Of a stretch of DNA of 56,949 nt, positions 55,788 to 56,949 are shown piece by piece. Below the pieces are notes generated by a model. The model made no database searches, had not been told where the DNA came from, and saw only the letters and a program-made list of their open reading frames with translations. Positions within the stretch are counted from its first letter, which is position 1, and each line of letters starts with the position of its first letter. The translations under genes and the position numbers were made by a program. This DNA is from an uncultured Alphaproteobacteria bacterium (GTDB taxonomy: Bacteria; Pseudomonadota; Alphaproteobacteria; Puniceispirillales; Marisalimonadaceae), in assembly GCA_937142855.1 (NCBI GenBank), contig CAKZQZ010000009.1, forward strand, positions 1 through 56,949, in the 5' to 3' direction.

Positions 55788-55864
55788 GGCGGAGTAGCTC
55801 AGCTGGTTAGAGCATCGGAATCATAATCCGGGTGTCGGGGGTTCAAGTCCCTCCTCCGCTACCA
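55788..55864 (+). tRNA. tRNA-Met (CAT), elongator type
   Basis: A 77-nt cloverleaf: acceptor GGCGGAG with CTCCGCT (G-U at the first pair), D stem GCTC/GAGC, anticodon stem TCGGA/TCCGG around loop ATCATAA (anticodon CAT), T arm with GGTTCAAGTCC, discriminator A and encoded CCA. The body matches the alphaproteobacterial elongator methionine tRNA; it lacks the initiator C1-A72 mismatch. tRNA-Ile2 (lysidine) is the less likely alternative. Its 3' 48 nt recur 1,043 bp downstream. Confidence 0.95.
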
Positions 55865-55865
55865 A
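55817..55865 (+). repeat. Direct repeat copy 1 (within tRNA-Met): left att site
   Basis: These 49 nt, from the anticodon stem to one base past CCA, are identical to 56860-56908. Identity starts exactly inside the anticodon arm and ends just after the tRNA, the usual extent of tRNA attachment sites used by tyrosine recombinases. Confidence 0.85.
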
Positions 55866-56003
55866 AATTCCAATAAAATCAAAAGTTTACAAAATCATTG
55901 CTTCCTGATCTAGAGTTTGACACAGTTATGCACTAATATTAGTATTATGAATCAGAACTTAGTAATAAATATATTCCCAATTTACTAAAATTAAATTTAC
56001 CAA

Positions 56004-56402
56004 TTAAAAATCTAACTTAATCCCATAAAATATAGTGTCCTTATTTATAGTAAAATATGAAAAAGGAGTTGTATTATAAATAATTTGACTATCAATATTT
56101 GTAGGATTTATTTGCAGAGATTGCCCATTTCCAAAACTATAGACCGCTTTGTTTTTAGACTTAATTTTAAAAGATGGTTTTGAAATTTTAGTAATACTTT
56201 TAGACAAATCATATTGTGTTTTAGACGACTTATTGTTCTTTTTACTCCCAAAAGAGAAAAAGGATTTTAAATAATTGTTTATTTTATCATCGTATTCATA
56301 GTGATTAAATAGTTTATTTGCAAACCCGCCTATGTCATCTGAAATTGCAACAGAGGGATAAATCATCAATTTCGCTATAATTAATAAACTTACTAACTTC
56401 AT
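56004..56402 (-). CDS. Small secreted protein of unknown function
   Basis: A 132-residue protein from ATG 56402: signal peptide KLVSLLIIAKLMIYPSVAIS, then a polar, Lys/Ser/Asn-rich body, ending in FYGIKLDF. A C-terminal Phe after alternating hydrophobic residues is typical of an outer-membrane beta strand, but the protein is short for a barrel. A TTG five codons upstream extends the frame. It is the only clear gene inside the tRNA-flanked segment. No family recognised. Confidence 0.6.
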   Translation of the reverse strand: MKLVSLLIIAKLMIYPSVAISDDIGGFANKLFNHYEYDDKINNYLKSFFSFGSKKNNKSSKTQYDLSKSITKISKPSFKIKSKNKAVYSFGNGQSLQINPTNIDSQIIYNTTPFSYFTINKDTIFYGIKLDF

Positions 56403-56681
56403 TAAATCAATTTCCAATATAGATATAATAAAATGTTAAATGTATTTATTTAAGAGTCAAATGCTTGTTATTTTTATTTCTATAAAAATACATGTAATTA
56501 AGAGAATAATAATCCAATAGAAATAAGAGTCTCTTTTATCTTTGTTCAAAACTAAATTTTTCAGAACTCTATTAATAACAAATATGTAGAAACAGAAAAT
56601 AGAATTGTTGTTTTCTAGAATGATACTTTTTCTAATTGCCTTTTGAGATTTTAATTATTCTTTAAAAGAAAGGATTAATAG

Positions 56682-56771
56682 ATGAAATATAATCAGTCTA
56701 AAGGTTTATTAAGTAGATCTAATAAAATATTATTTGATTTTAATATACCAGATTATTTGAAAATTTTATAG
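56682..56771 (+). CDS. Possible 29-residue small protein
   Basis: ATG at 56682 preceded by AAAGGA with 8-nt spacing, open to TAG at 56769-56771. The product is basic at the start and hydrophobic at the end (...FNIPDYLKIL). It may be a real small gene, the broken 5' end of a longer one, or chance in AT-rich DNA. It lies inside the tRNA-flanked segment. Confidence 0.25.
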   Translation: MKYNQSKGLLSRSNKILFDFNIPDYLKIL

Positions 56772-56779
56772 ACACAAAA

Positions 56780-56802
56780 AGTTATACACAAGAGTTATAC
56801 AC
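56780..56802 (+). repeat. Tandem AGTTATACAC repeats
   Basis: AGTTATACAC at 56780-56789 and again at 56793-56802, a 13-bp period. The first includes TTATACACA, a match to the relaxed DnaA box TTATNCACA. They lie 58 bp before the second att copy and could be recombinase arm sites or replication-initiator sites. Confidence 0.4.
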
Positions 56803-56859
56803 TTTAGATATTAATCGTATAAATTATTGATATCATTAATAAAAATAATATAGGAAAAG

Positions 56860-56908
56860 GGAATCATAATCCGGGTGTCGGGGGTTCAAGTCCCTCCTCC
56901 GCTACCAA
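56860..56908 (+). repeat. Direct repeat copy 2: displaced tRNA-Met 3' end (right att site)
   Basis: An exact copy of 55817-55865. It lacks the tRNA 5' half (the preceding bases do not match), so it is not a functional tRNA. It marks the right end of the tRNA-flanked segment, 41 bp before the window edge. Confidence 0.85.
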
Positions 56909-56949
56909 TAATTCAATATTATTTAAAATAGAAAAGTTAAATTATCTTG

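Follow-up and report, generated by a model that had tools for sequence, protein, structure and literature searches.

A 1,043-bp probable remnant of a tRNA-Met-specific integrative element in a SAR116 bacterium

The described systems closest to the locus studied here are CIMEs (cis-mobilizable elements) and the tandem accretion of ICEs and IMEs. A CIME is devoid of integration and transfer genes, retains both attL and attR, and sits beside other elements in a tandem array at a tRNA 3' end (PMC5704250). In marine bacteria, Prochlorococcus among them, tycheposons are elements linked to tRNA genes (tRNA-Met included) that encode a tyrosine recombinase and carry cargo (PMC10872708, PMC11389934), with quoted sizes of 4-200 kb (PMC10872708). 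Finally, MITEs and CALIN arrays are derivatives that lack a transposase or an integrase (PMC11389934).

We analysed a window of 56,949 nucleotides, the entire contig C9 of a 2.32-Mb SAR116 genome in 122 contigs (G000), and examined a 1,043-bp integrase-less segment (55865-56907) that follows a tRNA-Met gene near its right end. Like a CIME, this mini-element has no recombinase or transfer genes, retains both att sites and belongs to a tandem array; it differs in that the units here are 1-3 kb long and in that no conjugation or mobilisation genes were recognised among the scanned ORFs of the parent type. Judged by its anatomy it may be described as CIME-like, a remnant within a tandem accretion array; formal membership would call for an ICE or IME as parent. 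With tycheposons the SAR116 elements have in common a marine, tRNA-linked setting, a tyrosine recombinase in the larger relatives and the presence of cargo, and these integrase-bearing relatives resemble one; the window element itself was rejected as a tycheposon, having no recombinase and, at 1,043 bp, falling below the quoted range. As in MITEs and CALIN arrays, it is short and carries recognition ends without an enzyme, but these are putative lambda-like att arms at a tRNA gene rather than transposon ends or attC sites. The features that mark integrative elements at tRNA 3' ends were all found: a direct repeat at both borders, an integrase of the family beside the att site (in relatives), and an empty site. 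This kind of element is already known, and the window element adds a member to it.

The attachment target is an intact tRNA-Met gene (CAT anticodon; 55788-55864, + strand; ARAGORN), which we take, from its sequence and general knowledge, to be of the elongator type. Its 3' half plus one base (55817-55865, + strand) forms the left core copy of an identical 49-bp direct repeat, consisting of 48 bp of tRNA and one A, whose right copy (56860-56908, + strand) is the displaced 3' half and gave no tRNA call with ARAGORN. A first-pass annotation, made from the letters alone, had reported this repeat, its 1,043-bp start-to-start spacing and the absence of a recombinase from the enclosed DNA; we recovered the same coordinates and spacing and found no recombinase-like ORF between the copies. 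A chance origin of a 49-bp exact match is excluded. The only sizeable ORF between the copies encodes a 137-aa cargo product, no integrase match was obtained anywhere on C9, the Rfam scan found the tRNA with all else below threshold, and the phage records searched returned ordinary tRNA matches only. We consider it very probable that the segment is a decayed tRNA-Met-specific integrative element of SAR116, belonging to an integrase family for which we coined the label IntA, shortened by internal deletion and situated in a tandem integration hotspot.

Both ends of the segment are attP-like. At the left, an IHF-consensus box, AATCAAAAGTTTA (55877-55889, + strand), occupies the same position as in eight other left ends and is followed by an arm of two worn AGTTATACAC copies with 2 and 1 mismatches (55914-55933, + strand). 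Homology of 79-83% to the elements of relatives (55871 to ~55965, + strand) passes through these worn repeats into the start codon (55947) of the relatives' integrase gene, the reading frame of which has been lost in the window. At the right, two perfect AGTTATACAC repeats with a period of 13 (56780-56802, + strand) precede an IHF-consensus box that is inverted relative to the left one (56820-56832, - strand). The att sites are therefore retained unevenly, with exact cores, a perfect right arm and a worn left arm.

The same architecture recurs across relatives. Left ends read core, IHF-consensus box, paired AGTTATACAC repeats with a period of 10 that begin 49-61 nt past the core, and integrase start codon; right ends read paired repeats with a period of 13 at -80 and -67, inverted IHF box, and core. 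Of the 14 left ends, 9 have the box at +12 to +15, and of the 14 right ends, 10 have it at -39/-40, against a background of 1-2% of 60-nt windows; these counts are not independent because the ends are related by descent. The arm repeat varies with the integrase lineage, being TTATACAC in relative G055, TTAGACAC in G044 and TTGACAC in G059, and the N-terminal region of the integrase is far less conserved than its C-terminal half. In phage lambda, the attP core acted on by Int lies between IHF boxes and directly repeated arm sites. The SAR116 elements appear to share this combination of core, IHF boxes and direct arm repeats, while their sequence motifs differ from those of lambda; by analogy, the candidate IHF and arm motifs, whose roles are assigned from consensus and position, may be bound as in lambda. 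Three genes of the HU/IHF family are present in G000. We also weighed DnaA boxes as an explanation of the TTATACACA repeats but discarded it, as the motif shifts with the integrase lineage and keeps fixed distances to the core.

The enzyme missing from the window is found intact in related genomes. The right end of the window segment precedes a partial tRNA in G000 (three times) and in five relatives of the genus, G001, G010, G013, G049 and G055, and in a diverged form in G026, G032 and G044. In G055 an intact 392-aa integrase gene follows tRNA-Met, with the matching right end 25.8 kb further on, and intact homologues lie directly after tRNA-Met in G047 (85% identity), G044 (77%) and G059 (55%). 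This family of intact recombinases of ~392 aa, present in four relatives, begins right past the left arms. Members of the family match the Pfam integrase SAM-like domain, and that of G044 matches a PHROG integrase (6e-24); the G055 protein, by contrast, matches no Pfam family and is identified as an integrase through its homologues. A PDB sequence search yielded nothing useful, and AlphaFold gave a poor model of IntA (pLDDT 50), with the N-terminal part alone fairly confident. The IntA-family integrase presumably acts at the tRNA-Met core.

The scanned ORFs of the 25.8-kb element in G055, all shorter than its largest (984 aa, between the restriction-modification genes), include MORN-repeat proteins, a second tyrosine recombinase and components of type I restriction-modification, and no conjugation, relaxase or capsid families were found among them. 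A 123-aa ORF just upstream of its Arc-like gene (locus L102, 6848-7216) has a sub-threshold match to an ORF2/G2P replication protein. Neither of the two marks of a phage satellite, matches to viral contigs or phage-like genes, was found: neither the right-arm pattern nor IntA matched viral contigs, and the PHROG matches of the larger relatives comprise integration genes, weak regulator- or antitoxin-like hits and unknowns only.

How the window element lost its interior can be read from its right half. A stretch of 118 bp (56645-56762, + strand) shares 95.8% identity with an internal part of the element in G055; it contains the 5' fragment of an Arc-like gene, 27 codons from an ATG at 56682. 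The G055 counterpart is an intact 116-aa gene inside the element, with the Arc-like identity drawn from a weak PHROG match. In the window this gene is cut and joined to the right end at 56761-56762, fusing points that are ~20 kb apart in G055, and the right end itself is 88-90% identical to that of G055. Since the element fragment is 95.8% identical whereas the core gene mnmA of G000 and G055 is 76.6% identical, and since the gene is cut at the right end, the element entered horizontally and its interior was then deleted. Of the options left by the first-pass annotation, that of a remnant is thus borne out, by the truncated gene fused to the right end and by the worn integrase-proximal end. 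For the stretch 55966-56644 the G055 element offers nothing comparable, from which it follows that the parent differed from that element and that a separate step brought in the cargo. A search for an intact parent of the window element itself found none.

These features fit a scenario in which an ancestral element similar to the 25.8-kb one of G055 would have entered tRNA-Met by means of its tyrosine recombinase, the integration restoring the tRNA gene and pushing the old 3' half to the far end. An internal deletion would then have taken out the integrase together with most other interior DNA, so that the two recombination ends and a single cargo gene were left, and the remnant would sit in a tRNA-Met hotspot at which related and unrelated elements accrete in tandem. 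One point against this reading is that no IntA gene was found in the G000 genome; the window unit is thus probably unable to move today, although it might still be excised in trans if an IntA element entered the cell.

An old tandem duplication of the tRNA 3' half, without any integration, could by itself yield a partial tRNA copy. The first-pass annotation had proposed that related genomes sharing both copies at one distance, with no empty site, would point to such a duplication. Instead, spacings range from 1.0 to 25.9 kb, the right end is common across species while contents and spacings vary, intact integrases occupy the same position, and G022 is empty; we consider this explanation refuted and its probability negligible. 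At the empty site of G022 the tRNA is joined directly to the flank that is found after the last core copy in relatives, with identities of 87% over 1.9 kb to G001, 90% over 1.9 kb to G055 and 93% over 1.2 kb to G010. Empty, occupied and integrase-bearing variants of the syntenic locus thus coexist among relatives, in agreement with the integration at tRNA-Met first proposed for the window.

The window ends 41 bp past the right core copy (56909-56949), and the suggestion that its segment might be the first unit of a tandem array extending to the right could be followed only on another contig. C92 (10,534 bp) of the same genome carries core copies at 163-210 (100%) and 2218-2263 (93%), spaced 2,055 bp apart; between them are an ORF of 81 aa and an ATP-grasp gene of the D-Ala-D-Ala-ligase-like type. 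Past this unit lie GST, HI0933-family and Ppnp-family genes. As the HI0933-Ppnp block is also found past the final core copy of G001, G013 and G055, and behind the tRNA itself in G022, C92 holds the far side of the locus. An array is thereby supported for this genome and for its relatives, whichever way C9 and C92 are arranged. The last C92 core is also followed by the remains of another ATP-grasp gene, a 3'-end relic (L009, 2377-2430) that is 81% identical to the end of the preceding unit's gene.

The 42 nt at the end of C9 (56908-56949) agree at 41 of 42 positions with those after the last C92 core copy (2266-2307); they represent either chromosome or the start of a further unit, and the two contigs stem either from two haplotypes or from two units within a single array. 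The stop of C9 so soon after the repeat, together with this agreement, which suggests two haplotypes or a repeat, could also be taken to mean that C9 and C92 come from two strains binned together, the repeat at the contig end being a misjoin. We regard such an artefact as very unlikely, given that C9 contains the 1,043-bp unit complete with its two ends and that it has equivalents elsewhere, some of them in probable single cells; a two-strain origin would alter the order of C9 and C92 alone and leave the element unaffected.

The decayed element retains one gene, the 137-aa cargo ORF (56004-56417, - strand), which has no Pfam match and whose product, from its hydrophobic N-terminus, is likely an exported protein. 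Homologues occur in 19 of 136 genomes of the order, its own included, and in the relatives inspected they occupy a conserved chromosomal site beside an SDR gene or an alpha/beta hydrolase gene, mostly between both. In G000 the gap between these two genes (contig C39; L140, 5938-6365) is short and holds no cargo match, and the single copy found in the genome is the one in the tRNA-Met element. The closest relative, on contig C46 of G003, is 87.5% identical at the DNA level over 56197-56517, compared with 74.2% for mnmA, and that contig also has an integrase gene. The coding comparison gave 21 differences at 203 sites, 12 of the 21 at third codon positions, a weak hint that the cargo gene may be under selection.

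Integrase-less units are not confined to the window. Measured core to core, they span 1,043 and 2,055 bp in G000, 2,982 bp in G013, 1,842 and 1,942 bp in G049, 2,538 bp in G010, 1,935 bp in G001, 1,562 bp in G055 and 1,654 bp in G026, and two of them (in G013 and G049) keep a broken integrase gene start. The 2,982-bp unit of G013 also contains a right arm without a tRNA tail (contig C3, 159945-160017; L051 19946-20000 into L052 1-18), which looks like a fusion of two units whose intervening core was lost.

It is possible, though doubtful, that these 1-3 kb units are active minis that are moved in trans by passing IntA elements, much as MITEs or integrase-less cassettes are moved. At least nine units with very few genes each, in seven genomes (three of them probably single-cell) and two families, would be in keeping with such activity, as would right ends that are well kept despite the loss of the integrase. 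One mini, which carries a GFA-domain gene, has an interior that G013 and G049 share at 99-100% identity, compared with 82-98% for the flanking genes, which favours a recent transfer of the unit or its cargo; this near-identical pair in two species suggests that 1-3 kb minis may move in trans. However, near-identity can also result from homologous recombination or from co-transfer with a larger element, and the h161+h100 mini has diverged about as much as core genes, which favours inheritance. Furthermore, the left arms of the window unit are worn and that of the C92 unit is mostly gone, and the truncated gene and integrase fragments resemble decay. A broader and unlikely proposal is that of a SAR116 cassette-like system at tRNA-Met, in which 1-3 kb integrase-less units with complete lambda-like att ends and very few genes would be shuffled in trans by occasional IntA elements and could take over genes of the chromosome, in this case a conserved one now found nowhere but inside the unit.

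For the window element, decay following integration remains our preferred reading, and it outlines a route to single-gene gain in a streamlined ocean bacterium, whereby a large element arrives, shrinks to its ends and one gene, and then remains as a docking place for the next. It also links a lost chromosomal gene to a homologue inside a tRNA-Met unit. The IntA family is represented in four forms, empty, full, mini and stacked, and its arm motifs shift with the integrase; the four forms and the lineage-specific motifs together make site recognition and mobility in trans directly testable.

The same tRNA gene also hosts a second class of elements (G003, G013, G014 and G019), which have their own integrase and a different right end. 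In the loci of G003, G014 and G019 and at L051 17147-17971, the tRNA match is longer and the integrase lies at the far end. In G000 itself, a 427-aa tyrosine recombinase on contig C45 (L020, 5082-5936) is a distant relative of IntA (33% over 117-378); about 0.6 kb separates it from a sequence that matches the conserved 5' portion of a tRNA (C45, 6489-6509).
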